This document shows positions 7,128 to 39,156 of a stretch of DNA of 64,000 bases, in pieces; the stretch's first letter is position 1; every line of letters starts with the position of its first letter. Origin of the DNA: Ideonella oryzae (GTDB lineage Bacteria > Pseudomonadota > Gammaproteobacteria > Burkholderiales > Burkholderiaceae_C); the NCBI RefSeq assembly GCF_024055665.1, contig NZ_JAMXMC010000005.1, positions 248,001-312,000 on the forward strand, given 5' to 3'. The notes below the pieces were generated by a model, which did no database searches, was not told the DNA's origin, and was given only the letters and a program-made list of their open reading frames with translations. Position numbers and translations under genes: made by a program.

Positions 7128-7153
7128 TTAAGTTCACGCCAGGCACGGTCGCC
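7128..7153 (+). promoter_or_regulatory. Late flagellar promoter element, flagellin 1
   Basis: TTAAG (7128-7132), 13 bp, then CGGTCGCC (7146-7153), ending exactly 57 bp before the flagellin ATG. The same two blocks with the same 13-bp gap occur before both other flagellin genes, fliD and flgK. It is likely read by the sigma28 encoded in this cluster. Confidence 0.65.
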
Positions 7154-7209
7154 TTTGCGGGGAAGAGGGCGTCATAACGACGACCCCGCAACCCCGCAGG
7201 AGTCCCCCG

Positions 7210-8115
7210 ATGCTCAGCCTGAACACCAACGCCGCAGCACTGTCCACCCAGACCGCCCTGGCCAACAGCCAGAAGGCCCTGACCGCCTCCATGACCCGCC
7301 TGGGCACCGGCTACCGCGTCAACTCCGCCATGGACGACGCCGCCGGCCTGCAGATCGCCACCCGTCTGAATTCCCAGACCCGTGGCATGGCCGTCGCCCA
7401 GAAGAACACCCAGAACGGCATCTCCCTGATGCAGACCGCCGAAGGTGCTTTCAGCGAGGTGACCGACATCCTGCAGCGCATGAAGGACCTGGCCACCGAA
7501 GGCGCCAACGGCACCTCGTCGACCGACGACAAGACCGCCATGCAGTCGGAATACGACGCGCTGGGCCGCGAGCTGAAGAACATCATGGACAACACGTCCT
7601 TCGGCGGCCAGAAGCTGTTCGCGACCGGCACCAACGCCGCGGCCGTGACCGGCGGCACCAGCACGCTGGGCAAGACCGGTGGCATCACGTTCCAGATTGG
7701 CGCCAGCGCCAGCGAAACGATGACCACCGACGTGTCGGCCGCCGTCTCCGGGCTGACGAACGACGGCGGCACCCTGGGCTTGGCCAGCGCCACCTACAAG
7801 ACCACGGCCACCGCCGCCACGACCGGCGCGGAGATCGGCTCGGCCGGCACCATCACGCTGCTGGAAAACGCGCTCAAGGATGTGGGCACGGTGCGCTCGG
7901 CGCTGGGCGCGGCCTCCAACCGCCTGGACCACGTCTACAACAACCTCGGCAACATGAGCACCAACACCGCCGCCGCCAAGGGTCGCATCATGGACGTGGA
8001 CTACGCCACCGAGACTTCCAACATGACCGCCAAGCAAATGCTCCTGCAGGCCGGCACCTCGATGCTCAAGCAATCGAGCTCCATGTCGCAGATGGTCCTC
8101 TCGCTGATGCAATAA
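7210..8115 (+). CDS. lafA: Flagellin 1 (lateral-type)
   Basis: A 301-residue flagellin, shorter than most polar flagellins. The N-terminal D0/D1 region (MLSLNTNAAALSTQTAL, about residues 1-140) and the C-terminal D1/D0 region (about 215-301, ending SSMSQMVLSLMQ) are complete and near-identical to flagellins 2 and 3. Only about 80 central residues differ (here TNAAAVTGGTSTLGKTGG and neighbours). It has its own late-type promoter element and its own terminator (8138-8163), so it is transcribed alone. The ribosome site is GCAGGAG. It would be exported by the type III apparatus encoded nearby and assembled under the FliD cap. Confidence 0.93.
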   Translation: MLSLNTNAAALSTQTALANSQKALTASMTRLGTGYRVNSAMDDAAGLQIATRLNSQTRGMAVAQKNTQNGISLMQTAEGAFSEVTDILQRMKDLATEGANGTSSTDDKTAMQSEYDALGRELKNIMDNTSFGGQKLFATGTNAAAVTGGTSTLGKTGGITFQIGASASETMTTDVSAAVSGLTNDGGTLGLASATYKTTATAATTGAEIGSAGTITLLENALKDVGTVRSALGAASNRLDHVYNNLGNMSTNTAAAKGRIMDVDYATETSNMTAKQMLLQAGTSMLKQSSSMSQMVLSLMQ

Positions 8116-8137
8116 GCCTGCGCGCCCCTCCCTGCAC

Positions 8138-8163
8138 AGGCCACCTTCGGGTGGCCTTTTCTT
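8138..8163 (+). terminator. Intrinsic terminator after flagellin 1
   Basis: AGGCCACC-TTCG-GGTGGCCT forms a perfect 8-bp stem with a UUCG-type tetraloop, followed by a T-rich run. The same hairpin follows metK, and a one-base loop variant follows flagellin 2. Confidence 0.85.
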
Positions 8164-8174
8164 TGGTCCGCCGT

Positions 8175-8200
8175 TTAAGCCAGCTCGCCCGCCGGTCGCT
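8175..8200 (+). promoter_or_regulatory. Late flagellar promoter element, flagellin 2
   Basis: TTAAG (8175-8179), 13 bp, then CGGTCGCT (8193-8200), ending 57 bp before the flagellin 2 ATG. Blocks, gap and distance match those of flagellin 1 and 3. Confidence 0.65.
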
Positions 8201-8256
8201 TAGTACAGCTGAGGGCGTCGTGATGAGGCCCCATCCACCCCACCAGGAGTTTTGCC

Positions 8257-9114
8257 ATGCTCAGCCTGAACACCAACGCCGCAGCACTGTCCACCCAGAC
8301 CGCCCTGGCCAACAGCCAGAAGGCCCTGACCGCCTCCATGACCCGCCTGGGCACCGGCTACCGCGTCAACTCCGCCATGGACGACGCCGCCGGCCTGCAG
8401 ATCGCCACCCGCCTGAACTCCCAGACCCGTGGCATGGCCGTCGCCCAGAAGAACACCCAGAACGGCATCTCGATGATGCAGACCGCTGAAGGCGCCTTCA
8501 GCGAAGTGACCGACATGCTGCAGCGCATGAAGGACCTGGCCACCGAAGCGGCCAACGGCACCTCGTCCTCCGACGACAAGACGGCCATGCAGTCCGAATA
8601 CGACGCGCTGGGCCAAGAGCTCTACAACATCATGAACAACACCACCTTCGGCGGCTCCAAGCTGCTGGCCGGTGGCACGTTGGGCAGCGGCGCGGTGACC
8701 TTCCAGATCGGCGCCAGCGCCTCGGAGACGATGTCGGTCGACGCCTCGACCTCGATGACCACGCTGGGCACCGACCTGCTGGCCGCCACGGCCAATTACG
8801 CGGCGGCCGGTTCGACCGGTACCGAGCTGACCGCCACGGCCAATGCCACCATCACCAAGCTGGAAACGGCGCTGAAGGATGTGGGCACGGTGCGCTCGGC
8901 CCTGGGCGCCGCCTCCAACCGCCTCGACCACGTCTACAACAACCTCGGCAACATGAGCACCAACACCGCCGCCGCCAAGGGCCGCATCATGGACGTCGAC
9001 TACGCCACCGAGACCTCCAACATGACCGCCAAGCAGATGCTGCTGCAAGCCGGCACCTCGATGCTCAAGCAATCGAGCTCCATGTCGCAGATGGTCCTGT
9101 CGCTGATGCAGTAA
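8257..9114 (+). CDS. lafA: Flagellin 2 (lateral-type)
   Basis: A 285-residue flagellin, the shortest of the three tandem copies. The first ~130 residues and last ~85 are almost identical to the other copies at protein and DNA level. The central part is the most compact (SKLLAGGTLGSGAVTFQIGA, then a Thr/Ala-rich stretch). It has its own promoter element upstream, a CAGGAG ribosome site and its own terminator. Near-identical ends around a variable middle fit duplication followed by gene conversion of the conserved arms. Confidence 0.93.
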   Translation: MLSLNTNAAALSTQTALANSQKALTASMTRLGTGYRVNSAMDDAAGLQIATRLNSQTRGMAVAQKNTQNGISMMQTAEGAFSEVTDMLQRMKDLATEAANGTSSSDDKTAMQSEYDALGQELYNIMNNTTFGGSKLLAGGTLGSGAVTFQIGASASETMSVDASTSMTTLGTDLLAATANYAAAGSTGTELTATANATITKLETALKDVGTVRSALGAASNRLDHVYNNLGNMSTNTAAAKGRIMDVDYATETSNMTAKQMLLQAGTSMLKQSSSMSQMVLSLMQ

Positions 9115-9149
9115 ACCCGCGACATCGCGCGCCCGCGCGCCACGCCGCC

Positions 9150-9174
9150 AGGCCACCCTCGGGTGGCCTTTTTC
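9150..9174 (+). terminator. Intrinsic terminator after flagellin 2
   Basis: AGGCCACC-CTCG-GGTGGCCT, an 8-bp stem followed by a T run. It is nearly the same hairpin as after flagellin 1. Confidence 0.85.
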
Positions 9175-9185
9175 ATGCCCGTCAC

Positions 9186-9211
9186 TTAAGCCCCGGCGGC
9201 AGCCGGTCGCC
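9186..9211 (+). promoter_or_regulatory. Late flagellar promoter element, flagellin 3
   Basis: TTAAG (9186-9190), 13 bp, then CGGTCGCC (9204-9211), ending 57 bp before the flagellin 3 ATG. Confidence 0.65.
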
Positions 9212-9267
9212 TAGTGAATGAGAGGGCGTCACGACGAGGCCCCACCACCCCACCAGGAGTCTTTGCC

Positions 9268-10143
9268 ATGCTCAGCCTGAACACCAACGCCGCAGCACTG
9301 TCCACCCAGACCGCCCTGGCCAACAGCCAGAAGGCCCTGACCGCCTCCATGACCCGCCTGGGCACCGGCTACCGCGTCAACTCCGCCATGGACGACGCCG
9401 CCGGCCTGCAGATCGCCACCCGTCTGAATTCCCAGACCCGTGGCATGGCCGTCGCCCAGAAGAACACCCAGAACGGCATCTCGATGATGCAGACCGCCGA
9501 AGGCGCCTTCAGCGAGGTGACCGACATCCTGCAGCGCATGAAGGACCTGGCCACCGAAGGCGCCAACGGCACCTCGTCGACCGACGACAAGACCGCCATG
9601 CAGGCCGAGTACGATGCGCTGGGCCAGGAGCTGTACAACATCACCGCCAACACCTCCTTTGGCGGCTCCAAGCTGCTGGATGCCGCCTCGGGTTCGCTGG
9701 CCGCCACCACCGGCGTGACCTTCCAGATCGGCGCCAGCGCCAGTGAGACCATGAAGGTGGACGTCTCGGCCAGCCTGAAGACCGGCGGCACGCTGGACGC
9801 CGCCCTCAAGGCGGTGAGCACCAACAACTACAAGGCCTCGGGCTGGACGAGCGGCACCGAAATCGGCGCCTCGGCCACCATCACCCTGGTGGAGACGGCG
9901 CTGAAGGAAGTGGGCACGGTGCGCTCGGCCCTGGGCGCGGCTTCCAACCGCCTGGACCACGTCTACAACAACCTCGGCAACATGAGCACCAACACCGCCG
10001 CCGCCAAGGGCCGCATCATGGACGTCGACTACGCCACCGAAACCTCCAACATGACCGCCAAGCAGATGCTGCTGCAGGCCGGCACCTCGATGCTCAAGCA
10101 ATCGAGCTCCATGTCCCAGATGGTCCTGTCGCTGATGCAGTAA
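9268..10143 (+). CDS. lafA: Flagellin 3 (lateral-type)
   Basis: A 291-residue flagellin with the same conserved ends as copies 1 and 2 and a different central block (SKLLDAASGSLAATTGVTF, then LKTGGTLDAALKAVSTNNYK). The start ATG 9268 has CAGGAG upstream and aligns with the other copies; an 18-codon extension is possible in frame but unlikely. Unlike copies 1 and 2 it has no hairpin terminator after its stop. The next gene begins 28 bp later on the same strand, so the late transcript may read on into the FliK-like gene. Confidence 0.93.
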   Translation: MLSLNTNAAALSTQTALANSQKALTASMTRLGTGYRVNSAMDDAAGLQIATRLNSQTRGMAVAQKNTQNGISMMQTAEGAFSEVTDILQRMKDLATEGANGTSSTDDKTAMQAEYDALGQELYNITANTSFGGSKLLDAASGSLAATTGVTFQIGASASETMKVDVSASLKTGGTLDAALKAVSTNNYKASGWTSGTEIGASATITLVETALKEVGTVRSALGAASNRLDHVYNNLGNMSTNTAAAKGRIMDVDYATETSNMTAKQMLLQAGTSMLKQSSSMSQMVLSLMQ

Positions 10144-10171
10144 ACCCACCGTACGCAGCCGGGCGGCCCCG

Positions 10172-11236
10172 ATGGCGCTGGAGCGCGTTGCCCCCGTCAG
10201 CCTGCCGCGCCCCGTGCTGGGCGCCGGCGGCTGGCCCCCCCCGGCCTGGCGTGCTGGCGATCTGGTGCTGCTGCGCCTGGTCGGGCTGCAGGACGGCGTG
10301 GCCCTGCTGCAAGGCGCCGGGGGCCACGTCTGGCGCTTGCCCGCCACGGATGCGCCGCTGGCCCACCTGCCCCTGGGCACCGCCCTGAGCTGGACCGTGG
10401 TCAGCACCCGTCCTCAGCTGGCACTGCAGCTGCAGGCCACCCCGCCCCCCGTCGCGGACCCACCTCCTGCACCAGGGAACGCGGACGCCCCCATCGACCG
10501 GTCCGCCCCCCCTGTGCCGGCGGCGCTGGCCGACCTCCGCCCCGACGCGGAGATCCTGCGACTGATCCACCCCCTGAGTGGCGAAGCCACGCGCCTGGCC
10601 TTCCAGTGGCGCCACCAGGTGCTGACAGGCTCGCGCGGCGGCGAGCGGCGCGAGCGCTGGCGCCAGCGCGCCGCCGACGGCGCGCTGCCCTGGGGCCTGC
10701 TGGCGACCTGGCTGGCCCGCGAAAACGAAGACGACGCGGACCCCGACGCCCCGCCGGGCGGACAGAAGCCGCTGCACTTTGAGCTGCGGCTGGGCGCGCT
10801 GCGCCTGGGGCTGCTGCTGGTGGAGCCGGCGGCCGCGCCACCGCAGCCATCCCCCCGCACGCACCTGCTGGCCCTGCGGCTGATGCTCAGCCCGCCGGGT
10901 TGGGGCCCGGTGGTGCTGCAGATCGAGCTGGGCGCCACGGGGCCGGGTGCAGAACCAGGCCTGCATCTGCGCGTGGCGGCCGCCGAACCCGAGGCGCTGA
11001 CGCGGCTGCAGCAGCAGCTGCCGCGACTGGCCGGCCCGATCACCCGACTGGGCCTGAGCCTGGAAGGCGGTCAGCTGGAACGGCTGCGACCGGGCATGGC
11101 CCTGTGGACACCGCCAGCCGGCCGCGTGCAACCCGCCCGGCTGCCGCCGCTGCTGTTCCGCGTGGCGACCGAGCTGTGCCTGGCACTCTGGGCCGACGAA
11201 ACGCCGGCCGCGGGCCCGCCAGCCTCAGCCCAGTGA
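10172..11236 (+). CDS. FliK-like (hook-length-control-type) protein, tentative
   Basis: A 354-residue proline/leucine-rich protein. Residues about 30-90 (LVLLRLVGLQDGVALLQGAG, then LPLGTALSWTVV and PQLALQLQA) have the beta-rich pattern often found ahead of FliK-type C-terminal domains. Residues about 240-310 (GPVVLQIELG, LHLRVAAAEPEALTRLQQQL, TRLGLSLEGG) follow the Flg_hook pattern of a beta hairpin, an amphipathic helix and a strand. The tail (PPLLFRVATELCLALWADE) is of unknown role. It follows flagellin 3 with no terminator between, and its 3' end overlaps convergent flhA by 12 bp. A canonical fliK is present at 26232, so this would be a second FliK-like protein. The family call is pattern-based, not certain. 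Confidence 0.5.
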   Translation: MALERVAPVSLPRPVLGAGGWPPPAWRAGDLVLLRLVGLQDGVALLQGAGGHVWRLPATDAPLAHLPLGTALSWTVVSTRPQLALQLQATPPPVADPPPAPGNADAPIDRSAPPVPAALADLRPDAEILRLIHPLSGEATRLAFQWRHQVLTGSRGGERRERWRQRAADGALPWGLLATWLARENEDDADPDAPPGGQKPLHFELRLGALRLGLLLVEPAAAPPQPSPRTHLLALRLMLSPPGWGPVVLQIELGATGPGAEPGLHLRVAAAEPEALTRLQQQLPRLAGPITRLGLSLEGGQLERLRPGMALWTPPAGRVQPARLPPLLFRVATELCLALWADETPAAGPPASAQ

Positions 11237-13315
11237 GCCGACGATGCTGACCTCGCGCTGCTCGGGCACCTCGTTGTAGGACAGCACGTTCAGGCCCGGC
11301 GCGAACAGCCGGGCATAGCGCGCCAGCAGCGGCCGGATCTGCGGCATCACCAGCAGCACCGGCGCGGCCGCCTGCTGCTTCATCTGCTCACGCACCGTGG
11401 GCATGTTCAGCTGCAGTTGCGACAGCAGCTGAGGATCGACCGGGAAGTTGTCCAGCGCCACCTTCTGATTGCCCTGGCGGGCCTGGTTGAGCGCCCCCAG
11501 CAGCAGGCTCTCCAACTCGCCGCTGAGGTTGAAGGCCTTGAGCTCGGCCGCCGGCCCGCACAGGCCGTTGACGATCTGGCGGCGCAGCGTGCAACGCACC
11601 TCGGCCGCCAGCATCAGCGGGTCCTTGGTGGCCTCGGCGTTCTCCAGCAGGGTGGTGGCCACCGGCACGATGTCGCGCAGCGACACGCCCTCGGTCAACA
11701 GCGCGCGGAAGACCTTCAGCAGCTGGCTGTGGTTGAGGGCCTTCTCCAGTGCCGCGGCCAGCTTGGGGGCCAGCGTGCCCAGGCGCTCCAGCAGCGCGGC
11801 CACGTCGTCGTGGCGCAGCAGCTCGGGCAGCTGCTCGCGCACCAGCTTCGAGAGGTGGGTGGCGATCACGCTGGACACATCCACCACCTGGTAGCCCAGG
11901 CCCAGCGCATGGGCCTTGTCCTGCGGGCTGATCCACACCACCGGCATGCGGTAGGCGGGGTCCACGGCGGGCAGGCCGTCCAGCTCGCCGTAGGTCTGCG
12001 GCGAGGGGATGGCCATCAGGCGGTCCGGATGGACCTCGCCACCGGCCAGCGGCGTGCCGTTGAGCAGCACGCTGTACTGGGTGGGCTTGAGACCCAGGTC
12101 GTCGCGCACGCCGATGGCCGGCAGCAACAGGCCCATCTGCTCGCTGAGCGTCTGGCGCAGGCCCTTGACCCGCTGCGTCAGCGGTGCGCCATGGGCCTGG
12201 TCGATCAGGCTCACCAGCCGGTAACCCACCGTCAGCGTCAGCGGCTCGACGACCGGCAGGCTGCGCCAGTCCAGCTCGGGCGGGCGCTCCACCACCAGGG
12301 CGCCCTGCAGGGCCTGGTCGGGCTCGGCCACCGGGCGGGGTTCGCGCTGATGCATGCGCCAACCGGCAAAGGCCAGCAGCGCGGCAAAGGCCAGGAAGGT
12401 CAGGCGCGGCATGCCGGGGATGCTGGCCAGCAGCGCCATCATGCCGGCGGCGCTGAACAACACGGCCGGGTTGGCCAGCAACTGTTCGCCCACCTGCTGC
12501 TCGAAGTCGCCCGAATCGCTGATGCGGGTGACGATGATGGCCGCGGCCGAGGACAGCAACAGCGCCGGGATCTGGGCCACCAGGCCGTCGCCAATGGTCA
12601 GCAGCGCGTACTGGCGGAAGGCATCGGCAAAGCTGAGGTCGTGCATCAGCGCGCCGATGGCCACGCCGCCCAGCATGTTGATCAGCAGGATCAGGATGCC
12701 GGCGACGGCGTCGCCCCGCACGAACTTGGAGGCGCCGTCCATCGCACCGTAGAAGTCGGCCTCCATGCCCACCTCCCGGCGGCGGGCCTGGGCCTTTTCC
12801 TGGTTGATGAGGCCGGCGTTCAGGTCCGCGTCGATGGCCATCTGCTTGCCGGGCAGCGCATCCAGCGTGAAGCGGGCCGACACCTCCGAGATGCGCTCCG
12901 CGCCCTTGGTGACCACCACGAAGTTGATGATCATCAGGATGACGAAGACCACCAGGCCGACGACGAAGTTGCCGCCGATCACCACGTTCCCGAAGGCCTC
13001 GATCACATGGCCCGCCGCCTGCGTGCCCTCGTGGCCGTGCAGCAGCACCACCCGGGTGGAAGCCACGTTGAGCGTCAGCCGCATCAGCGTGGTGGCCAGG
13101 ATGATGGTCGGGAAGACGGAGAAGTCCAGCGGCCGCTTGGCGCTCACGCTGACCAGCACCACCACCATCGCCAGCACGATGTTGAACGTGAACAACACAT
13201 CCAGCAGCACCGGGGGCAGCGGCAGGATGATCATGGCCAGCACGGCCATCAGGAACAGCGGCGTGGCCACCTTCTGGCGGCGGACTTCGGCAAGGAATCG
13301 GCTCAGCGCGTTCAT
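11225..13315 (-). CDS. flhA: Flagellar type III export gate protein FlhA
   Basis: A 696-residue integral membrane protein of the flagellar export gate. The N-terminal half holds about eight hydrophobic segments. The family signature is at ISEVSARFTLDALPGKQ, followed by the conserved cytoplasmic loop (DLNAGLINQEKAQARRREVG). The C-terminal ~350 residues form the cytoplasmic ring that docks substrates and chaperones. It is the last gene of the minus-strand operon fliM-N-P-Q-R-flhB-flhA and its ATG overlaps the flhB stop by 4 bp. Length is normal. Confidence 0.96.
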   Translation of the reverse strand: MNALSRFLAEVRRQKVATPLFLMAVLAMIILPLPPVLLDVLFTFNIVLAMVVVLVSVSAKRPLDFSVFPTIILATTLMRLTLNVASTRVVLLHGHEGTQAAGHVIEAFGNVVIGGNFVVGLVVFVILMIINFVVVTKGAERISEVSARFTLDALPGKQMAIDADLNAGLINQEKAQARRREVGMEADFYGAMDGASKFVRGDAVAGILILLINMLGGVAIGALMHDLSFADAFRQYALLTIGDGLVAQIPALLLSSAAAIIVTRISDSGDFEQQVGEQLLANPAVLFSAAGMMALLASIPGMPRLTFLAFAALLAFAGWRMHQREPRPVAEPDQALQGALVVERPPELDWRSLPVVEPLTLTVGYRLVSLIDQAHGAPLTQRVKGLRQTLSEQMGLLLPAIGVRDDLGLKPTQYSVLLNGTPLAGGEVHPDRLMAIPSPQTYGELDGLPAVDPAYRMPVVWISPQDKAHALGLGYQVVDVSSVIATHLSKLVREQLPELLRHDDVAALLERLGTLAPKLAAALEKALNHSQLLKVFRALLTEGVSLRDIVPVATTLLENAEATKDPLMLAAEVRCTLRRQIVNGLCGPAAELKAFNLSGELESLLLGALNQARQGNQKVALDNFPVDPQLLSQLQLNMPTVREQMKQQAAAPVLLVMPQIRPLLARYARLFAPGLNVLSYNEVPEQREVSIVGSLG

Positions 13316-15232: not shown

Positions 15233-15244
15233 GGGGCGCCCGGC

Positions 15245-15517
15245 TCAGCCCACCAGGGCGGCGGCGCGGTGGAAGATGCTGACGCAGTAGTCCATCAGCG
15301 TGACCACCATCCAGCGCCCCGCCAGGCCCACCACCAGCAGGGTGACCAGCAGGCGCGGCAGAAAGCTCAGGGTCTGCTCGTTGATCTGGGTGGCGGCCTG
15401 GAACAGGCTGACCACCAAGCCCACCACCAGACCGGGCAGCACCAGCACGGTCACCAGCAGCATCACCAGCTTCAGACATTCGGCCACCAGGTCGGCGGCG
15501 ATCTCGGGGGTCAGCAT
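15245..15517 (-). CDS. fliQ: Flagellar export protein FliQ
   Basis: A 90-residue protein with two membrane helices (about residues 14-40 and 52-76) joined by the conserved loop (LFQAATQINEQTLSFLPRLL). It is part of the FliP-FliQ-FliR export gate. It lies 22 bp after the fliP stop and 12 bp before fliR. Confidence 0.94.
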   Translation of the reverse strand: MLTPEIAADLVAECLKLVMLLVTVLVLPGLVVGLVVSLFQAATQINEQTLSFLPRLLVTLLVVGLAGRWMVVTLMDYCVSIFHRAAALVG

Positions 15518-15539
15518 GGGCGGCCTTCCTCGGTCGGCA

Positions 15540-24027: not shown

Positions 24028-24045
24028 GGCCCGCCGCCATGACGC

Positions 24046-24071
24046 TTCAGTTCCGCGCCCGCACGGTCGCC
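24046..24071 (+). promoter_or_regulatory. Late flagellar promoter element, fliD operon
   Basis: TTCAG (24046-24050), 13 bp, then CGGTCGCC (24064-24071), ending 45 bp before the fliD ATG. It has the same two blocks and gap as at the flagellins, with one change in the first block. It would drive fliD through motB and probably on to flgM-flgN. Confidence 0.6.
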
Positions 24072-24115
24072 TATTGACGGTGTCACCCCCGTCAACCGAA
24101 CCAGGAATCCACACC

Positions 24116-25492
24116 ATGGGAACCAGCACCATCGATCCCGCCAGCATGGCCCAGCAGCTGGCCTCGGCCTATGTGTCGGGCACGCAGACCCTGCTGAGCA
24201 GCCAGTCGACCCAGGCCCAGAGCACGTCGACGGCCTTGACCAAGCTGCAGTCGGCCCTGAGCGCCTTCAACAGCGCCCTGGGCAGCCTGACCACCAAGAA
24301 GTCGGTGCTCAGCTACACCGCCAGCCTGAGCAGCAGCGGCTACGCCACCGCCACCGCGTCGGCGACGGCCACGCCGGGCAACACCAGTGTGTTCGTCGAG
24401 CAGGTCGCCACGGCCAACCAGGTGGCCTTTGAAGACCTGCCGGCCGTGCCGGTGGCGCTGGGCGGCCCGCTGGTGGTGCAGCTGGCCGATGGCAGCAACT
24501 TCAACGTCAACCTGGCCGGGGCCGACCAGGATGGCGACGGCACGCTGTCGCAGACCGAGATCGCCCGCGCGATCAACCAGGCCTCCGGCAACGGCGGTCT
24601 GGTCAGCGCCATGGTGGTCACCTCGGGCAGCCAGACCAACCTGGTGCTCAGCGCCAGCAAGACCGGTGCGGGCAGCGCCATCACGCTGGACACCAGCGGC
24701 CTGCCGGCCAGCACGCTCAAGACCGCGCTGAGCACCGGCGGCAAGCAGCTCGCGGCGGCGCAGGACGCCGTGATGTGGCTGGGGGCCCAGGGCACCGGCG
24801 TCAAGGTGCAGCAGGCCTCCAACACCTTCACCGCCATCGCCGGCGTGAGCCTGACGGTGACCCAGGCCCAGGCCACCGGCAGCACGCCGATGACGCTGAG
24901 CGTGGCCAGCGATCAGAGCGGCACCGCCGGCAACATCCAGAAGTTCATCGACGCCTACAACGCGCTGGACACGGCCCTGGACGGTCTGACGGCCATCAGC
25001 ACCAGCAGCAGCGGCAGCACCACGACCACCTCGGCCGGCGCCTTCGCCAACGACTCCAGCGTGCGCAGCCTGCGCAGCAGCCTGTCCAACATCCTGCGTC
25101 AGCAGGTGGGCGGCCTGCGCCTGATGGACTACGGCATCAACGCCAGCCGCGACGGCCAGCTCTCGCTGGACCAGACCCAGCTGCAGAAGACGCTGGCCAG
25201 CAGCCCCGACGGCCTGGACGCCATCCTGGGCAGCGCCAGCACCACCGCGCCCACGGGCGTGATGGGCAGCTTCTCGACGCTGATCAAGCAGTGGACCAAC
25301 AGCACCAACGGCCTGATCAAGAGCCGGCAGGACGCCGTTCAGCGTCAGCAGACCAACATCAGCGCGCGCCAGACCAAGCTGGAAGGCCAATACAACCTGA
25401 TGTACCAGCGCTACCTCACCCAGTTCACCCAGCTGCAGACGCTGCAGTCGAGCATGAGTGACAACAGCAGCCTGCTCAGCAGCCTGGGCTGA
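24116..25492 (+). CDS. fliD: Flagellar filament cap protein FliD
   Basis: A 458-residue cap protein that folds exported flagellin at the filament tip. The N-terminal D0 (STIDPASMAQQLASAYV), the FliD N-domain, and the C-terminal region with helical ends (YNLMYQRYLTQFTQLQTLQS) are complete. The start ATG 24116 lies 45 bp after the promoter element. An EF-hand-like acidic loop (GADQDGDGTLSQTEI, near residues 135-150) is unusual in this family and could bind calcium. Confidence 0.93.
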   Translation: MGTSTIDPASMAQQLASAYVSGTQTLLSSQSTQAQSTSTALTKLQSALSAFNSALGSLTTKKSVLSYTASLSSSGYATATASATATPGNTSVFVEQVATANQVAFEDLPAVPVALGGPLVVQLADGSNFNVNLAGADQDGDGTLSQTEIARAINQASGNGGLVSAMVVTSGSQTNLVLSASKTGAGSAITLDTSGLPASTLKTALSTGGKQLAAAQDAVMWLGAQGTGVKVQQASNTFTAIAGVSLTVTQAQATGSTPMTLSVASDQSGTAGNIQKFIDAYNALDTALDGLTAISTSSSGSTTTTSAGAFANDSSVRSLRSSLSNILRQQVGGLRLMDYGINASRDGQLSLDQTQLQKTLASSPDGLDAILGSASTTAPTGVMGSFSTLIKQWTNSTNGLIKSRQDAVQRQQTNISARQTKLEGQYNLMYQRYLTQFTQLQTLQSSMSDNSSLLSSLG

Positions 25493-27437: not shown

Positions 27438-27902
27438 ATGAGCAAGCTACAGAAACTCTTGATCGGCGGCGCACTCGCACTGCTGCTGGTGGGCGGAGCC
27501 GGTGCCGCCGCGTGGTGGAAGTTCAAGCGGCCTGCCGCGCAGGACCACCCGGCCGAGACCGCAGAAGCCGCCGTCGACCCGATCGAATACAAGTACATCA
27601 CGTTGGACAAGGTCATCGTCATGCTGCGCAATGGCGAGGGCGAGACCGGCAGCCACTACCTGGCCGTCGACCTGGTCTTCAAGACCCCGCCCAGGACCGA
27701 GAAGCTCACCAAGGAACACCTGCCGCTGCTGCGCAGCGTGGCCGTGCGCTCGCTGTCCAACCAGACCCGGGCTCAGGCCACCACGATGACCGTGGACCAA
27801 CTGGCCGAGCGGTTGAACCAGGCCTATGCGGCGTCCTACCAGGCCGAGCACCACGAGATGCCCTTCGCCGAGGCGATGATCGGCAAGCTCATCGTGGAAT
27901 GA
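27438..27902 (+). CDS. fliL: Flagellar basal body-associated protein FliL (LafF-type)
   Basis: A 154-residue protein with one N-terminal membrane helix (about residues 8-28) and a periplasmic domain with the family pattern (IEYKYITLDKVIVML, then HYLAVDLVFKTPPRTEKLTK). It rings the stator units and supports torque. It matches lafF in place, just before the sigma factor gene, with which its end overlaps or abuts. Confidence 0.88.
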   Translation: MSKLQKLLIGGALALLLVGGAGAAAWWKFKRPAAQDHPAETAEAAVDPIEYKYITLDKVIVMLRNGEGETGSHYLAVDLVFKTPPRTEKLTKEHLPLLRSVAVRSLSNQTRAQATTMTVDQLAERLNQAYAASYQAEHHEMPFAEAMIGKLIVE

Positions 27903-28642
27903 GCATGGACCTGCACGCCGGCTACAGCGAGATGGCGGCCTATGGGGTGGTCGCCGGGTCGGTGCCGTCCGAGGCCGCCGACCGCCGCAGCGAGCAGCAG
28001 CGGCTGCTCGAGCACGCACCGCTGGTCAAGCGGGTGGTGCGCCAGCTGCACGCCCAGGCCAGCGCCGTGCTGGACCGCGAGGACATGGCACAGATCGGCC
28101 TGATGGGGTTGCTGGAGGCGCTGCGCCGCTACGGGCCGCCCGACGAACGCTTCCCGGCCTTTGCCACGCTGCGCATCCGCGGCGCGATCCTGGACGAATT
28201 GCGGCGTCAAGACTGGCGACCGCGCGGCGTGCGCCAGGACAGCCACCGCCTGCGCGATGGCGTGCGCGAGCTGACCCGTCGACTCGGCCGCGTGCCGACC
28301 GAGGGCGAGGTGCTGCAGGCGCTGAAGCTCTCACCGCAGGCCTACCAGGATCTGCTGGCGGCAGAGAACGCCGAGCAGATGGACAGCTTCGACGAGATGG
28401 TCGGCGAGCTCTCGCAGCGCCCGGCCGACCAGTGTTCGCCCGAGGACCGGCTGGTGCTGCGCCGCAGCCTGGAGCAGGCCCTGGGCTGCCTCAATGAACG
28501 CGAGCAGCAGGTGATCCAGCTGTACTACGAGTACGAGCTGAGCCTGAAGGAAATTGCCGCGGTGCTGGCGCTCACCGAAGCCCGCATCTGCCAGATCAAC
28601 AAGGGGGCGCTGCAGAAGATGAAGCTGCGCCTGGCCGCCTGA
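27899..28642 (+). CDS. lafS: Flagellar sigma28 factor (FliA/LafS)
   Basis: A 247-residue sigma factor. Region 2 (LDREDMAQIGLMGLLEALRR, then FATLRIRGAILDELRRQDW) and regions 3 to 4 (LNEREQQVIQLYYEYELSLK, LTEARICQINKGALQKMKLR) are complete and of the sigma28 type. It should direct late flagellar genes; the shared element TT(A/C)AG-N13-CGGTCGC is its likely target. It lies inside the fliD operon, downstream of one such element, so it probably increases its own synthesis. The start is ATG 27899 (overlapping the fliL stop) or 27905. It sits between fliL and motA as lafS does in lateral systems. Confidence 0.92.
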   Translation: MSMDLHAGYSEMAAYGVVAGSVPSEAADRRSEQQRLLEHAPLVKRVVRQLHAQASAVLDREDMAQIGLMGLLEALRRYGPPDERFPAFATLRIRGAILDELRRQDWRPRGVRQDSHRLRDGVRELTRRLGRVPTEGEVLQALKLSPQAYQDLLAAENAEQMDSFDEMVGELSQRPADQCSPEDRLVLRRSLEQALGCLNEREQQVIQLYYEYELSLKEIAAVLALTEARICQINKGALQKMKLRLAA

Positions 28643-29560: not shown

Positions 29561-30500
29561 GACCGAGTCCCACGAACCCACCATCATCAAGCGGGTCTCC
29601 GCCCGGGGACACGACGATGGCCATGGCGGCGCCTGGAAGGTGGCCTTCGCCGACTTCTGCCTGGCCCTGCTGTGCCTGTTCCTCGTGCTGTGGCTGCTCA
29701 ACGCCCGCGAGAAGGAAGAGATCGAGAAGACCATGCAGGCCGTGATGGGCAACCCCATGGAAGAAGGCAGCCAGGGCCGGGTCCCCGAGTTCGACGGCTC
29801 CCCCAACGGCAGCCTGATCTCGCGCGAGCCGGTGCCCGGCCAGGGCGGCCAGTCCACCGCCGATGGCAGCGACGCGCCGGCCCGCCAGCAGTTGGACAAC
29901 CCGGAGCAGTTGCGGGCACTGGCACAGCGCCTGTCGGACATGGCCGAGGAGGCCGGCCTGGCCGGCCACCTGGAGACCACCGTGACCGCCGAGGGCCTGC
30001 GCGTGATGCTGCACGACACCGAGGGCGAGGGCATGTTCGCCCGCGGCAGCGCGGTGCTCAACAAGCGCTTCTCGGGCCTGCTGCGCCAGATGGGTCCGAT
30101 CTTCGCGCGCATCCGCAACCAACTGCTGATCCTGGGCCACACCGACGCCACGCCCTACTTCAACGTGGACGTGGGTGGCTTCTCGAACTGGAACCTGTCG
30201 AACCAGCGCGCGATGGCCGCGCGCCTGACCCTGCTCAACGGCGGCATGCACCCGGACAGCGTGCTGCAGGTCATCGGCATGGCCGACAAGGCCCCGCTGG
30301 ACATGGAGCACCCGCGCGCCGCACCGAACCGCCGCATCGAGCTGGTCGTGCTGACCGGCCCGCAGGCCCGCCGCCTGGCCTCGGCCTTCGGCATGCCGGC
30401 CACGCCCGCGGCCAATGGCGGCGATGGCGGCGACAGCGGCACGCTGCGGCGTGCCCGCGAGCAGGTCAATCAAAGCCTGGCTCCCACCCAGGAGCCTTGA
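29553..30500 (+). CDS. motB: Flagellar stator protein MotB (LafU-type)
   Basis: A 315-residue protein with one N-terminal membrane helix carrying the ion-binding aspartate (WKVAFADFCLALLCLFLVLW), a periplasmic linker and an OmpA-like peptidoglycan-binding domain (LLILGHTDATPYFN, then NLSNQRAMAARLTLLN). The helix resembles the proton-type MotB of enterobacteria, so proton drive is likely. The start is GTG 29553 with GGGAGG upstream. It overlaps the end of motA. Confidence 0.93.
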   Translation: MAKTESHEPTIIKRVSARGHDDGHGGAWKVAFADFCLALLCLFLVLWLLNAREKEEIEKTMQAVMGNPMEEGSQGRVPEFDGSPNGSLISREPVPGQGGQSTADGSDAPARQQLDNPEQLRALAQRLSDMAEEAGLAGHLETTVTAEGLRVMLHDTEGEGMFARGSAVLNKRFSGLLRQMGPIFARIRNQLLILGHTDATPYFNVDVGGFSNWNLSNQRAMAARLTLLNGGMHPDSVLQVIGMADKAPLDMEHPRAAPNRRIELVVLTGPQARRLASAFGMPATPAANGGDGGDSGTLRRAREQVNQSLAPTQEP

Positions 30501-30531
30501 AATGCAGACGCGAACGACCCGAGGGGCCCGC

Positions 30532-30813
30532 ATGAAGATCACCCAACGCTCCACCGCCCTGACGCCGACGATCGGTGTCGGTGCCACCGAGGCTGCCGCA
30601 TCCGCACCGGCGCCCGCCGCGGGCGCCGCGGCCGAGGCCACGCCGCTGCAGGCCGGCACGCTGGCCCCCGCCCAAGAGGCCCTGGCCGCGATGCCCGAGA
30701 TCGACAGCGCCCGCGTGGCCGCGGTGCGTGATGCGCTGGCCCGCGGTGAGATCCGCTTCGACGCCCAGCGCCTGGCCGGCCTGATCGAGCGTTTCCATGG
30801 AGGTCGGGGATGA
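30532..30813 (+). CDS. flgM: Anti-sigma28 factor FlgM
   Basis: A 93-residue protein with the FlgM layout: MKIT start, disordered Ala/Pro-rich N-terminal half, helical sigma-binding C-terminal half (MPEIDSARVAAVRDALARGE, then FDAQRLAGLIERF). It holds the sigma factor inactive until it is exported after hook completion. ATG 30532 has GAGGGG upstream; ATG 30502 is an alternative that adds ten residues. It lies just after motB and overlaps flgN by 4 bp, so sigma factor and anti-sigma factor are in one run of genes. Confidence 0.87.
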   Translation: MKITQRSTALTPTIGVGATEAAASAPAPAAGAAAEATPLQAGTLAPAQEALAAMPEIDSARVAAVRDALARGEIRFDAQRLAGLIERFHGGRG

Positions 30814-33039: not shown

Positions 33040-33042
33040 GCC

Positions 33043-33453: not shown

Positions 33454-33455
33454 CC

Positions 33456-34115
33456 ATGACCACCGCCACCCTCAACGGCAGCAGCGCCGGCACCACCACC
33501 GGCACCAGCGCGCTGTCCAACGCGCTGGTCAGCGCCAACGGCAGCGGCAGTGACCTGTTCACCACCCTGCTGGTGGCGCAGATCCAGAACCAGAATCCGC
33601 TGCAGCCCAACGACCCCAGCGACTTCGTCAACCAGCTGACCCAGCTCTCGCAGATGGAATCGCTGCAGACGCTGTCCAGCCAGTCGGCCTCGACCAACAC
33701 CTTGCTCGACAGCCTGCAGACCCTGGCCCTGGGCAACCAGGTGGGCAACAGCGTGACGGTGGCCACCAGCCAGCTGCAGTTCGACGGCACGACGGTGCCG
33801 GCGTCCTACAGCCTGGACAGCGCCGAGACCTCGGTGACGCTGGTGCTGACTGGCAGTGACCAGCAGGCCCACCGCGTCACGCTCGGCAGCCAGGCCAAAG
33901 GCGAGCACAGCCTCACTCTCGACCCGACAGCGCTGGGACTGCCCGCGGGCAGCTACAGCGTGAAGCTGGAGACCGCCAGCGGCGCGACCCCGACCTTCGC
34001 GGTCACCGGCCAGATCCAGACCATCCGCCTGTCCTCCGGCGGCATGACGCTCAACGTCAGCCACCTGGGCGAAGTCTCGCCCGCCGACATCACCCAGTTC
34101 AACGGCAAGTCCTGA
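33456..34115 (+). CDS. flgD: Flagellar hook cap protein FlgD
   Basis: A 219-residue hook-assembly scaffold. The conserved N-terminal segment (LFTTLLVAQIQNQNPLQPND, then FVNQLTQLSQMESLQTL) is followed by the FLN/Tudor-type beta region (about residues 105-200). It caps the growing hook and is later replaced by FlgK. Confidence 0.93.
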   Translation: MTTATLNGSSAGTTTGTSALSNALVSANGSGSDLFTTLLVAQIQNQNPLQPNDPSDFVNQLTQLSQMESLQTLSSQSASTNTLLDSLQTLALGNQVGNSVTVATSQLQFDGTTVPASYSLDSAETSVTLVLTGSDQQAHRVTLGSQAKGEHSLTLDPTALGLPAGSYSVKLETASGATPTFAVTGQIQTIRLSSGGMTLNVSHLGEVSPADITQFNGKS

Positions 34116-34128
34116 AGGAGTCCTCCCC

Positions 34129-35316
34129 ATGAGCTTCGAAATCGCCCTGTCCGGCATCAACGCCGTCAACACCCAACTCGACACCATCAGCAACAACATC
34201 GCCAACACTGGCACCTACGGCTTCAAATCCAGCCGCGCCAACTTCAGCGCGGTGGTGGCCGGCAGCAGCCCCAATGGCGCCGAGATCGGTTCGCTGACCC
34301 AGTTCATCGGCGTGGGTGGCAGCACGCTCAACACCGGCCGTTCGCTGGACGCGGCCATCCAGGGTCGCGGCTTCTTCGCGTTGAAGGACAACGCTGGCGG
34401 CATGAGCTACAGCCGCGTGGGCAACTTCGTGGTGGACAAGACCGGCGTGCTGGTGGACAGCGCTGGCCGCAAGGTGCAGGGCTATGCCCTCACCCCGGGC
34501 AGCGCCACCCGCGGTGCGCTGGGCGACATCAGCGTGCCCAGTGGCCAGATCGCGGCCAAGGCCTCGACCCAGCTGGACTACGTGGCCAACATGTCGGCCG
34601 ACTGGACCACGCCCTCGGTGACCCCCTTCGACAAGACCGACGCCCAGAGCTTCAACAGCTCGATGGTCTCGGTGGCCTACGATTCGCTGGGCAAGCAGCA
34701 CACGCTGACGCAGTACTTCGTCAAGTCGGGCGCCAACCAGGTGAACGTGCATTACACGATGGACGGTGCGGACCTGGGCACCACCACCACGCTGCAGTTC
34801 AGCACCGACGGTGTGCTGACCTCCCCGACGGCGGCGGTCTCGCTGGCGCTGGGCACCCCTGCAGGCGCCAGTGCGCTGACGGTGGGCGTGAACTACACCG
34901 GCACCACGCTCTACGCCGGCGAGGCCACCAACAGCGTCAACAGCGCCGATGGCTATGCCTCGGGCACGCTGACCGGCACCACCATCGCCGAGGACGGTTC
35001 GGTGATCGCCCAGTACAGCAACGGCCAGAAGCAGGCCATCGCCCAACTGGCCCTGGCCACCTTCCCGGACGAGGACGGCCTGACCCCCACCAGCGACACC
35101 AGCTGGGTGGCTTCGCAAGCCTCGGGCACCGCGCTGTACGACGCGCCGGGGGTCGGCATGTCCGGCACGCTGGCCGTGGGCGCGCTGGAGCAGTCGAACG
35201 TGGACATGACCGGCGAGTTGGTCAACCTGATGGCGGCGCAGCGCAACTACCAGGCCAACACCAAGGTCATCTCGTCGGAGAACGAGATGATGCAGGCCCT
35301 GTTCCAAGCCGTCTGA
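34129..35316 (+). CDS. flgE: Flagellar hook protein FlgE
   Basis: A 395-residue hook protein with the N-terminal motif (ALSGINAVNTQLDTISNNIA, then NTGTYGFKSSRANF) and a C-terminal helix (LVNLMAAQRNYQANTKVISS). The central domains (about residues 150-320) are beta-rich and Thr/Ser-rich. It has a clear GAAGGAG ribosome site. Confidence 0.94.
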   Translation: MSFEIALSGINAVNTQLDTISNNIANTGTYGFKSSRANFSAVVAGSSPNGAEIGSLTQFIGVGGSTLNTGRSLDAAIQGRGFFALKDNAGGMSYSRVGNFVVDKTGVLVDSAGRKVQGYALTPGSATRGALGDISVPSGQIAAKASTQLDYVANMSADWTTPSVTPFDKTDAQSFNSSMVSVAYDSLGKQHTLTQYFVKSGANQVNVHYTMDGADLGTTTTLQFSTDGVLTSPTAAVSLALGTPAGASALTVGVNYTGTTLYAGEATNSVNSADGYASGTLTGTTIAEDGSVIAQYSNGQKQAIAQLALATFPDEDGLTPTSDTSWVASQASGTALYDAPGVGMSGTLAVGALEQSNVDMTGELVNLMAAQRNYQANTKVISSENEMMQALFQAV

Positions 35317-35326
35317 GGCCTGACGC

Positions 35327-36055
35327 ATGGACGCCCTGATCTACACCGTGATGAGCGGCGCGGAGCGCGCGCTGCATGCCCAGCAGGTGCACGCCAACAA
35401 CCTGGCCAACCTGGACACGCCGGGCTTCCGGGCCGACCTGGAGCTGGCGGCCAGCCAGGCCGTGAACGGCTACGGCTACGACACGCGCCACCTCAGCGAG
35501 CTCAAGGCCAATGCGGTCTCCACCCGCGAGGGCACGGTGAAATCCACCGGCCGCGAGCTGGACGTGGCCCTGCAGGGCCCGGGCTACCTGGCCGTGGAAG
35601 ACGGCACCGGCGAGGCCTACACCCGTGCCGGCACGCTGCAGGTCGATGCCGATGGCGCTGTCACCGTCAACGGCCGGCCGGTGCTGGGCCAGGGTGGCCC
35701 CATCGTGCTGCCGCCCTACACCCGCCTGGAGATCGGCAGCGACGGCAGCATCTCCGTGCAGCCGGCCGGCGAGACCGACATGCAGACGGTCGACCAGCTC
35801 AAGCTGGTCCAGGCCGATGGCAAGGACCTGACGAAGAACGCGGCCGGACTGGTTGTCACCCGAAGCGGCCAGCCACTGGACGCCGACGACAGCGTGCGCG
35901 TGCGCAGCGGCTTCCTGGAGGGCAGCAACGTTGGTGCGGTCGAGGAGATGGTCGCCACGATGACGATCAACCGCGACTTCGAGATGCAGATGAAGCTCTA
36001 CCAGGCCGCCGACACGATGACCCAGACCGGCAACCGCCTGATCCGCGGCGAGTAA
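35327..36055 (+). CDS. flgF: Flagellar rod protein FlgF
   Basis: A 242-residue rod protein. It has the N-terminal rod motif (YTVMSGAERALHAQQVHANN, then LDTPGFRADLELA) and the usual C-terminal segment (SNVGAVEEMVATMTINRDFE). It lies 10 bp after flgE. Confidence 0.93.
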   Translation: MDALIYTVMSGAERALHAQQVHANNLANLDTPGFRADLELAASQAVNGYGYDTRHLSELKANAVSTREGTVKSTGRELDVALQGPGYLAVEDGTGEAYTRAGTLQVDADGAVTVNGRPVLGQGGPIVLPPYTRLEIGSDGSISVQPAGETDMQTVDQLKLVQADGKDLTKNAAGLVVTRSGQPLDADDSVRVRSGFLEGSNVGAVEEMVATMTINRDFEMQMKLYQAADTMTQTGNRLIRGE

Positions 36056-36088
36056 ACCGCCTTCCCCCTCTTCCGAACGGAGCCCCCC

Positions 36089-36877
36089 ATGAACCCCGCC
36101 CTCTGGATCAGCAAGACCGGTGTCCAGGCCCAGGATGCCAAGCTGCAGACCATCGCCAACAACCTGGCCAACGTGAACACCGTCGGCTTCAAGCGCGACC
36201 GCGTGATGTTCGAGGACCTGTTCTACCAGGTCGAATCCCAGCCCGGCGCGCAGCAGGCTGACGGCACCCAGGCGCCCACCGGTGTGCAGCTGGGCACCGG
36301 CACCCGCGTGGTCGGCACGCAGAAGGTCTTCACCACCGGCAACCTGCAGACCACCGGCCAGAGCCTGGACGTGGCCATCGTCGGCAACGGCTTCCTGCAG
36401 GTGGCCCTGCCCAACGGCGACACCGCCTACACCCGCGCCGGCCAGCTGCAGGTCAACTCCGACGGCAAGCTGGTCAACGCGCAGGGCCTGGCCATCCAGC
36501 CGGAGATCACCATCCCGGCCAATGCCACCGGTGTCAGCATCTCCGAAAGCGGCCTGGTGACCGCCACGGTGGCCGGCGCCACCGCCCCCACCGAGCTGGG
36601 CCAGATCCAGCTGGCCGGCTTCATCAACCCGGCCGGCCTGCTGGCCCGCGGCGAGAACCTGTTCCAGGAGACCGTGGCCAGCGGCACGCCCACCACCGGC
36701 AACCCCGGCAGCGACGCGCTGGGCAAGCTCAAGCAGGGCGCGCTGGAAGGCTCCAACGTGCAGGTGGTCGAAGAGATGGTGGACATGATCGCGGCCCAGC
36801 GCACCTACGAGATGAACACCAAGGTGCTCTCGGCCGCCGACAACATGCTGCAGAACCTGGCGCAGGCCGCACGATGA
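36089..36877 (+). CDS. flgG: Flagellar distal rod protein FlgG
   Basis: A 262-residue distal rod protein. Diagnostic stretches are LWISKTGVQAQDAKLQTIAN, NVNTVGFKRDRVMFEDLFYQ and the C-terminal NVQVVEEMVDMIAAQRTYEM. It spans the P and L rings. It overlaps flgH by 4 bp. Confidence 0.95.
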   Translation: MNPALWISKTGVQAQDAKLQTIANNLANVNTVGFKRDRVMFEDLFYQVESQPGAQQADGTQAPTGVQLGTGTRVVGTQKVFTTGNLQTTGQSLDVAIVGNGFLQVALPNGDTAYTRAGQLQVNSDGKLVNAQGLAIQPEITIPANATGVSISESGLVTATVAGATAPTELGQIQLAGFINPAGLLARGENLFQETVASGTPTTGNPGSDALGKLKQGALEGSNVQVVEEMVDMIAAQRTYEMNTKVLSAADNMLQNLAQAAR

Positions 36878-37572
36878 TGCCGCGCGCCTTCCTGTCCTTC
36901 CCGTCCGTCCCCTCCGGGGCCGGCCTGCTGGGCCTGGCAGCACTGCTGCTGGGCGGCTGCGCCGTGGTCGAGCCACCGCGCCCGCCCGAACTGACCGCCC
37001 CCGATCCCCTGCCCCTGGTGCAGGAAAAGCCGCGCCACGGCAGCGCAGGCGGCGTGTACGTGCCGGACAACGGCTGGTCGCTGACCTCGGACGTGCGCAG
37101 CTTCCACCCGGGCGACGTGCTGACCGTGATGCTGAGCGAAACCACCCAGGCCAGCAAGAAGGCCGACACCAGCTTCGGCAAGAACAGCGATGTGTCGGTG
37201 TCGCCCGCGGTGATCGCTGGCAAGTCGGTCAAGACCGACATCGGCCTGAGCAACAAGACAGACTTCTCCGGCACCGCCGCCAGCACCCAGCAGAACACGC
37301 TGCAGGGCGCCATCACCGTGGTCGTGCACGAGGTGCTGCCCAACGGCCTGCTGCGGGTGCAGGGCGAGAAGAGCCTGTACCTGAACCAGGGCGAGGAGAT
37401 GATCCGCCTGGCCGGCTATGTGCGCGCCGCCGATGTGACGCCGGACAACCGCGTCTCGTCGCAGCGCCTGGCCAATGCCCGCATCGCCTACGCCGGCAGC
37501 GGCGCCCTCGCCGAGGCCAACAACGCCGGCTGGCTGACCCGCTTCTTCGCCAGCCCCTGGATGCCGTTCTGA
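36874..37572 (+). CDS. flgH: Flagellar L-ring lipoprotein FlgH
   Basis: A 232-residue outer-membrane lipoprotein of the L ring. The signal sequence ends in a lipobox (LLLGGC, cysteine near residue 29). Family motifs are present (YVPDNGWSLTSDVRSFHPGD, then TVMLSETTQASKKADTSFGK, and GEEMIRLAGYVRAADVTPDN). It starts with two ATGs overlapping the flgG stop. Confidence 0.94.
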   Translation: MMPRAFLSFPSVPSGAGLLGLAALLLGGCAVVEPPRPPELTAPDPLPLVQEKPRHGSAGGVYVPDNGWSLTSDVRSFHPGDVLTVMLSETTQASKKADTSFGKNSDVSVSPAVIAGKSVKTDIGLSNKTDFSGTAASTQQNTLQGAITVVVHEVLPNGLLRVQGEKSLYLNQGEEMIRLAGYVRAADVTPDNRVSSQRLANARIAYAGSGALAEANNAGWLTRFFASPWMPF

Positions 37573-37587
37573 CCCCCCCCGCCCCGC

Positions 37588-38760
37588 ATGCGCACCACAG
37601 GCCCCACGATGTCCACCGCCCTTCGCCTCCTGACCCTGCTGGCCGCCCTGGGCGGCACCCTGCCCGCCGCCCAGGCCGTGCCCCGGCCGGCCGCCCCCCC
37701 GGCGGGCGACACGCTGCCGGCCGCCCAGCCGCTGCGCAACCTGGTCAGCATCGAGGGCCAACGCGAGAACCAGCTGCTGGGCTATGGCCTGGTGGTGGGC
37801 CTGAACGGCAGCGGCGACAGCACGCAGGTGAAGTACGCCGGCCAGTCGGTCAACAACATGCTCAAGCAGTTCGGCGTCAAGCTGCCAGACAACGTGGACG
37901 CCAAGTCCAAGAACGTGGCCACCGTGATGGTCAGCGCCAGCTTCCCGCCGGGCTACCGCAAGGGCCAGACCATCGACATCACCGTGGCCTCGCTGGGCGA
38001 CGCCAAGAGCCTGCGTGGCGGCATGCTGCTGCTCACCCCGATGCGGGCGGCCAATGGCGAGGTCTATGCGCTGGCCCAGGGCAATGTGGTGGTGGGCGGT
38101 GTCTCGGCCCAGGGCGCCAGCGGCTCCAGCGTGACGATCAACACCCCCACCTCGGGCCGGGTGCCCAATGGCGCCAGCATCGAGCGCGAGATCGAGACCG
38201 ACTTCGACCAGGCCCCCACCGTGCGGCTGAGCCTGCGCCGGCCTCACTTCCAGACCGCAACCAACATCGTCGAGGCCGTCAACCGCCGCTTCGGACCGGT
38301 GGCCACGGCGCGCGACGCCACCAGCGTCGAGGTGCAGGCCCCGGCCGACCCGACCCAGCGCGTGGCCTTCGTCGCCGCGCTGGAAGCGATGCGCGTGGAC
38401 GCCGGCACCTCCACGCCGCGCGTGATCTTCAACTCCCGCACCGGCACCGTCGTCATCACCGAAGGCGTGCGGGTGCGGCCAGCCGCGGTGTCGCACGGCT
38501 CGCTCAAGGTGGTGATCTCCGAGAACCCCCAGGTCAGCCAGCCCGGCCCCTTCAGCCAGGGCCAGACCCAGGTGGTGCCACGTTCTCAGGTCAGCGTGGA
38601 GCAGGGCGGCGGCCGCATGTTCAAGTGGGCCCCGGGTGCCAGCCTGCAGGCCATCATCGACGCGGTCAACGCCACCGGCGCCACGCCCGACGACATCATG
38701 TCCATCCTGCAGGCCCTGGACCAGGCCGGCGCGATCGACGGCACGCTGGAGGTGATCTGA
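37588..38760 (+). CDS. flgI: Flagellar P-ring protein FlgI
   Basis: A 390-residue periplasmic P-ring subunit with a cleavable signal (about residues 8-30, [17 protein letters not shown]) and then [40 protein letters not shown] and the C-terminal [20 protein letters not shown], all diagnostic. ATG 37609 (MSTALRLL) is a possible later start with a better signal-peptide shape. Confidence 0.95.
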
Positions 38761-38762
38761 CC

Positions 38763-39134
38763 ATGACGGACCCCACCCTCGGCACCCCCGCGGCCGCCGC
38801 CGGCCCCGCCGATCCGCTGGGCCTGGGCAGCATCCGGCCTGCGCTGGACAGCCAGGCCGCCACCGAGCAGGCCGCCCGCAAGGCGGCCCAGCAGTTCGAG
38901 AGCCACTTCATCGCCCAGATGCTGCACGACATGCGCCGCAGCAGCCAGGCCCTGTCCGACCCGGATGGCAACCGGCACAGCCAGGGACAGGAGATGCTGG
39001 ATCTGGCCGACACGATGGTGGCCGACCAACTGGCCACGCAGGGCGCGTTCGGGATTGCCGACCTGCTGTTGCGCCAGGTGCTGCCGCAGGCGCCGGGCAC
39101 CCCCACCGCACCGCCCCCGGCCCAACCGGCTTAA
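38763..39134 (+). CDS. flgJ: Rod-cap protein FlgJ, N-terminal domain only
   Basis: A 123-residue protein holding only the rod-binding domain of FlgJ (AARKAAQQFESHFIAQMLHD, then MLDLADTMVADQLATQGAFG IADLLL split over a turn). Enterobacterial FlgJ has about 310 residues with a muramidase half; here that half is a separate gene at 31216. It scaffolds rod assembly. The first block of the flgK promoter element overlaps its stop codon. Confidence 0.9.
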   Translation: MTDPTLGTPAAAAGPADPLGLGSIRPALDSQAATEQAARKAAQQFESHFIAQMLHDMRRSSQALSDPDGNRHSQGQEMLDLADTMVADQLATQGAFGIADLLLRQVLPQAPGTPTAPPPAQPA

Positions 39135-39156
39135 GTGCCCGGCCCCGCCGGTCGCC
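39131..39156 (+). promoter_or_regulatory. Late flagellar promoter element, flgK operon
   Basis: TTAAG (39131-39135, overlapping the flgJ stop), 13 bp, then CGGTCGCC (39149-39156), ending 45 bp before the flgK ATG. It separates late flgK-flgL from the earlier flgB-J genes. Confidence 0.65.

Follow-up and report, generated by a model that had tools for sequence, protein, structure and literature searches.

The 64-kb window analysed here, a stretch of DNA from Ideonella oryzae, contains a second, lateral-type flagellar cluster in which a two-block element recurs at five sites, upstream of three flagellins, fliD and flgK. Judged from the sequence, the five sites are very probably sigma-28-type class III promoters of this lateral (Flag-2) system, read by its own sigma factor LafS (27899..28642; this gene and the other window genes and promoters given here with coordinates are on the plus strand). 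The form of the sites is best read as a variant of the known sigma-28 promoter kind, with LafS as its predicted reader. A preliminary description of the window had proposed a late-gene promoter, and the comparisons given below likewise point to a promoter-like element that belongs to the late genes in the window's flagellar system.

The five sites and their flagellar system

The pattern TTMAG-N13-CGGTCGC matches the window exactly five times (7128, 8175, 9186, 24046 and 39131), always on the plus strand, as against a mean of 0.01 and a maximum of 1 in 100 dinucleotide shuffles of the window. The end of CGGTCGC lies 57 bp before the ATG of each of the three flagellins (7210, 8257 and 9268) and 45 bp before that of fliD (24116) and flgK (39201). 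The preliminary description had the five sites, the exact 13-bp gap and both distances right. We note that three of the five sites precede tandem duplicated flagellins and are hence mutually non-independent.

The same description had suggested a search of the whole genome with zero or one mismatch. The 4.70-Mb genome contains seven exact matches, i.e. the five window sites and two others, and all four copies of the TTAAG form are within the window. Sites were also scored with a promoter matrix built on 19 sites from seven genomes, the five window sites among them. Here, the window sites score 22 to 31, no other place in the window exceeds 7.5, and the two exact copies outside the window are low as promoters (7.5 and 0.2). 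The one-mismatch half of the search added 70 matches (77 in total) that we rejected as extra members of the regulon; they are noise, because the reversed-pattern control gives 199. The best matrix score among them outside the five sites was 11.7, as calculated for the 30 of 77 with flanking sequence.

Two FliA proteins of the genome pass the family cut-off, and its flagellins fall into two groups of three. One FliA and three of the flagellins are on another contig (C2); the rest are in the window. The order of the window genes fliD-fliS-lafX-fliK-fliL-sigma-motA-motB matches the published laf order (PMC6993521), flgM and flgN follow downstream of motB, and flgA is on the opposite strand. The window thus holds a second, lateral-type (Flag-2) cluster with a LafS-type sigma-28 and a FlgM of its own, and the primary system is on the other contig. 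With the lateral systems of Vibrio, Aeromonas, Plesiomonas and E. coli (Flag-2) it shares the order fliD-fliS-lafX-fliK-fliL-lafS-lafT-lafU, an in-cluster FlgM, a sigma factor on the LafS side and, probably, a LafA-like flagellin. In contrast to them, the betaproteobacterial version seen here has three tandem flagellins 14 kb from fliD, and its flgM-flgN pair is immediately behind motB. Among the named genomes of the collection, which may omit records nearer to the window, Ideonella benzenivorans is the closest relative (LafS identity 89%).

The first flagellin (7210..8115) was the one of the three scanned against NCBIfam; its two best models are both lateral flagellin LafA, at 314 and 242 bits, which is below the curated cut-offs of 365 and 440. 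Flagellins 2 (8257..9114) and 3 (9268..10143) have 80-81% identity to it. fliD (lafB, 24116..25492) was assigned by NCBIfam FliD models, below the cut-offs, and flgK (39201..40580) by TIGR02492 over the cut-off. The anti-sigma-28 gene flgM (30415..30813) is over the cut-off of Pfam PF04316; its FlgM domain covers residues 81-121, and the true start is probably inside this frame.

At the first flagellin the predicted LafS-type promoter covers 7127..7157, with a -35 element TTTAAG (7127-7132), a spacer of 15 and a -10 region GTCGCCTTTG (7148-7157). The corresponding promoters are at 8174..8204 (flagellin 2), 9185..9215 (flagellin 3), 24045..24075 (fliD) and 39130..39160 (flgK-flgL). At all five sites the transcript would start about 7 bases after GTCGCCTT, i.e. 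near 7162, 8209, 9220, 24080 and 39165. The fliD promoter would also serve the downstream genes fliS-lafX-fliK-fliL-lafS-motAB. Two nearly identical terminator-like stems (8138-8157 and 9150-9169) close flagellin genes 1 and 2. The promoters of flagellins 2 and 3 come directly after these stems, their TTAAG being 17 and 16 bases downstream, so that each flagellin looks separately transcribed.

Conservation, register and the -10 difference

Six LafS orthologues were found among 399 genomes of the order. Their identity of 56-66% sets them apart from the other matches listed (at most 44%), all six genomes also carry a second FliA, and the clusters are syntenic. The element is present before the flagellin in 6/6 of these relatives, before flgK also in 6/6 (7/7 genomes when counted for flgK) and before fliD in 2/6. 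A wider scan of public genomes was based on the best 80 of 540 LafS loci, and here the element is just upstream of fliD in 44 of the 71 loci that have this gene. When TTAA and GGTCG were searched in the 80 loci at spacings of 8 to 21, 15 of the 16 matches in the direction of the cluster had one and the same spacing, and the 11 in the opposite direction were scattered.

A further comparison covered the regions upstream of the lateral flagellins (35 rows from 26 genomes of the 80 loci, all outside the training set of the matrix). A matrix score of at least 10 was reached by 32 of the 35 rows; the corresponding figures are 2 of 27 for primary-type rows and 0.8% for GC-matched windows. The 35 rows are what was left of 39 typed as lateral after the removal of L203, which is a primary gene, and of three rows from training genomes; on the primary side, 4 of 31 rows with scores of at least 17 were dropped, since, owing to a shifted start, they show the sites of lateral rows. 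The strict form TTAA-N16-GYCGY occurs in 30/35 lateral rows, two rows (Rubrivivax L240 and Chromobacterium L258) have a form one base shorter, and in three (L252, L254 and L259) one or both blocks are imperfect. Counted by genome, the element precedes the lateral flagellin in 26/26; the best site scores at least 10 in 24 of these, and the remaining two have the shorter form.

When gammaproteobacterial LafS was searched for at class level, with the profile of the beta proteins and with the model NF009091, one further clear genome emerged, the more distant G671, in which the element is found before flgK (score 23.6) and fliD (13.1); the flagellin was not found within the 60 kb taken. A site also precedes a small frame before a flgN-like gene, i.e. 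at the position of flgM, in L132, L139 and L160, where the frames are candidate flgM genes, and a site is about 330 bp before flgN, in the candidate flgM region, in G392 and G027.

At a matrix score of at least 15 the 80 loci gave 49 matches in the direction of the cluster and 8 in the opposite direction, versus 2 in the reversed and 7 in the complement control. Two of the 8 opposite matches are before flagellins and five (L118, L133, L149, L158 and L163) are within the flgA region by homology, the position inside flgA having been worked out for L158 alone. These five are high-scoring minus-strand copies in Pseudoduganella, Massilia and Duganella that are directed against the flgMN genes. Because of their location they were treated as coding chance, which is the probable reading; an antisense promoter is less probable.

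The register of the element was investigated with a sequence logo of 32 sites before lateral flagellins, all from genomes not used to build the matrix. The logo reads TTTAAG-N15-GTCGCCTTGT. The two columns that correspond to the leading CG of CGGTCGC carry 0.13 and 0.06 bits, and the next four, G[TC]CG, carry 1.4 to 1.7 bits each; relatives read e.g. TTGTCGC, CTGCCGT or CAGTCGC at this position. As the leading CG is not conserved, the proper form for comparison is TAA-N16-GYCG. The published consensus of the sigma-28 (FliA) promoter is TAAAGTTT-n11-GCCGATAA (PMC2859248), from which the lateral spacing differs by one base at most. In the same genome, two of the three primary flagellins have TCAAGTTC-N12-TCCGATAA and TCAAGTCC-N12-TCCGAAAT (TCAAG-N15-TCCGA in the spacing form), and the primary flgM and motA have TAAAGTCC-N11-TCCGAAAC and TCAAGGCG-N11-TCCGATAT; all four promoters are canonical. 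Unlike its two neighbours, the third primary flagellin (C2, 55764-56612) is not preceded by a clear sigma-28 site within 300 bp. The lateral spacing matches these two primary flagellins exactly and is at most one base off the other primary promoters, depending on the placement of the -35 T.

What the lateral sites have in common with the published promoter is thus the A-A of a T-A-A core at -35, a spacing within one base, a CG, usually preceded by G, at the upstream edge of the -10, and late flagellar targets. They differ from it in that TTTAAG lacks the GTTT tail, the second base of GCCG is mostly T, and the second half of the -10 is YCTTGT in place of ATAA. After the CG, the 32 logo sites have C/T, C/T, T/C, T/A, mostly G and mostly T, and an A never follows directly; most primary sites have A/T, T/A/C and A. 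Since the core ATAA is absent, we speak of a variant sigma-28 promoter and not of a plain member. The departure of the -10 tail from the canonical form had been recognized in the preliminary description. A weaker common GGTG is seen about 4 bases downstream of the -10 in the lateral flagellin promoters (logo columns 34-37), and by the usual distance transcripts would start there.

The LafS sigma factor and competing explanations

The preliminary description had placed a sigma factor at 27899, and the product of this gene is a second sigma-28 (TIGR02479 over the cut-off; 252 bits against NF009091, below the cut-off of 339). In a tree of 42 rows, 18 LafS proteins, to whose side it belongs, are separated from FliA by a branch with 100/100 support; the place of two gammaproteobacterial LafS rows is unsure because of their long branches.

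Residues were counted across the order and the class, in 88 LafS and 52 other FliA sequences, with the E. coli numbering checked against 6pmi_F. D81, R84 and R91 are present in all 140 proteins. According to work by Koo et al. from 2009, these residues reportedly read the GC and the CG of GCCG, and LafS should on this premise still read GYCG. Nearby positions separate the two groups: R89 is found in 88/88 LafS and 0/52 FliA, Q95 in 88/88 and 9/52, and H98 in 87/88 and 0/52. The same is true of the -35 helix of region 4.2, where A219 and N225 occur in all 88 LafS and in no FliA, and K226 in 87/88 and 0/52. Many other positions also differ, so that these residues are candidates and not proven determinants. 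The LafS proteins of E. coli Flag-2 and Vibrio campbellii, taken from a plasmid collection, likewise have R89, Q95, H98 and K226; that of Vibrio has P219 and H225. Sites picked by eye, without statistics, are TTAAG-N14-GTCGTTTT before lafA of E. coli Flag-2 and TTAAT-N15-ACCGCCTC before that of V. campbellii; nothing similar was seen by eye upstream of fliD in either.

An unlikely alternative is that FliA and LafS use the sites alike, the -10 difference having arisen by drift in a G+C-rich lineage and giving no functional insulation. The identity of D81, R84 and R91 in both sigma factors, the common spacing and a LafS-like -10 before the primary flagellin of three relatives are consistent with it. 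However, the difference recurs across numerous genera of betaproteobacteria and, as judged by eye, also in E. coli Flag-2 and V. campbellii, and several of these genomes keep NCCGAWA-like sites at their primary genes. Moreover, drift alone seems unlikely, because the variant -10 has C and T where AT-rich letters aid melting.

Several observations weigh against the reading of the sites as LafS promoters. The three relatives just mentioned have the primary flagellin sites TAAAGTTC-N11-GTCGTCTA (G269, L211), TAAAGTTC-N11-GTCGTCAA (G298, L214) and TCAAGTTT-N11-GTCGTTTA (G354, L215), each about 190 bp upstream, in which the -35 is FliA-like and the -10 LafS-like. About 100 bp upstream there is a nearer candidate, which in G269 has the canonical form TAAAGCTT-N11-TCCGTTAC; that of G298 (CACGTTAC) is weaker. 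The -10 difference may therefore not be strictly LafS-only: in these three genomes either LafS reaches the primary flagellin or FliA tolerates a LafS-like -10, and it is possible that the primary filament is cross-controlled by the lateral sigma factor. Furthermore, the site is missing at the threshold from 27 of the 71 fliD loci, from fliD of the four relatives of family f8 and, in the matrix scan of the window, from the window's own flgM. One primary flagellin of the same genome scores 12.0 through a chance-like place 268 bp upstream. Finally, the fixed residue differences between LafS and FliA reflect common descent and are not necessarily the cause of promoter choice.

It is very improbable that the element is an activator binding site or an mRNA leader element instead of a sigma-binding promoter. 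A protein site could likewise consist of two rigidly spaced blocks before co-regulated genes, but the blocks are at the -35/-10 distance and have their AA and CG in common with sigma-28 sites of the same spacing, and the form of the motif is constant while leader lengths range between 49 and 90 bp. The close succession of terminator-like stem and TTAAG at sites 2 and 3 and the lack of a sigma-70-like site in 7000-10300 also argue against it. The least probable alternative is the truly shortened spacer with an unrelated -10 tail of the preliminary description (TAAG-N11-GCCGGTCG, 4 bp tighter than canonical). At 8175, 9186 and 39131 the spacer has a chance ending that allows GCCGGTCG to be aligned with GCCGATAA, but the leading CG is not conserved and two primary flagellins of the genome have the same spacing as the lateral sites, which identifies the contraction as a mis-registration.

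Predicted regulation and two proposed late regulons

FliAL of Plesiomonas shigelloides is reported to act on the lateral flagellin, flgK, fliD and flgM, which are class III lateral genes, and the first three are the genes marked here; the accessible part of that paper gives no promoter consensus and states that none of the flagellar promoters was found to bind FliA or FliAL (PMC11242183). In the open literature we found no description of a LafS promoter consensus, for betaproteobacteria or otherwise; subscription work on Vibrio, Aeromonas and E. coli Flag-2 was outside this search, so that its unpublished status is unproven.

With LafS as the reader of the five sites, domain 4 would bind the -35 TTTAAG, and domains 2 and 3 would bind G(T/C)CG at the exact place where FliA binds GCCG; melting would then begin in CYTTGT and not in ATAA. 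The FlgM of the cluster would hold LafS until the hook is complete, and its export would then free LafS to turn on the flagellins, the cap and the hook-junction proteins. LafS would thus read TTTAAG and GYCGYYTTGT at the lateral genes, and FliA, NCCGAWA at the primary genes.

How similar sigma factors avoid firing each other's genes in cells with two flagella has, to our knowledge, been little tested. We tentatively propose, at somewhat less than even odds, that LafS and FliA are an ancient sigma-28 pair whose promoters split at the -10 end (YCTTGT versus ATAA) before the beta- and gammaproteobacterial lateral systems diverged, and that R89, H98 and K226 set the choice, giving two late regulons insulated by a few base pairs. 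One genome supplies both promoter sets and both sigma factors, and as the difference comes down to some four bases and a few residues, the insulation can be tested by single-letter swaps. The different -10 word may enable a single cell to operate its two flagella independently. The consensus also allows the late genes of lateral flagella to be predicted in betaproteobacteria.

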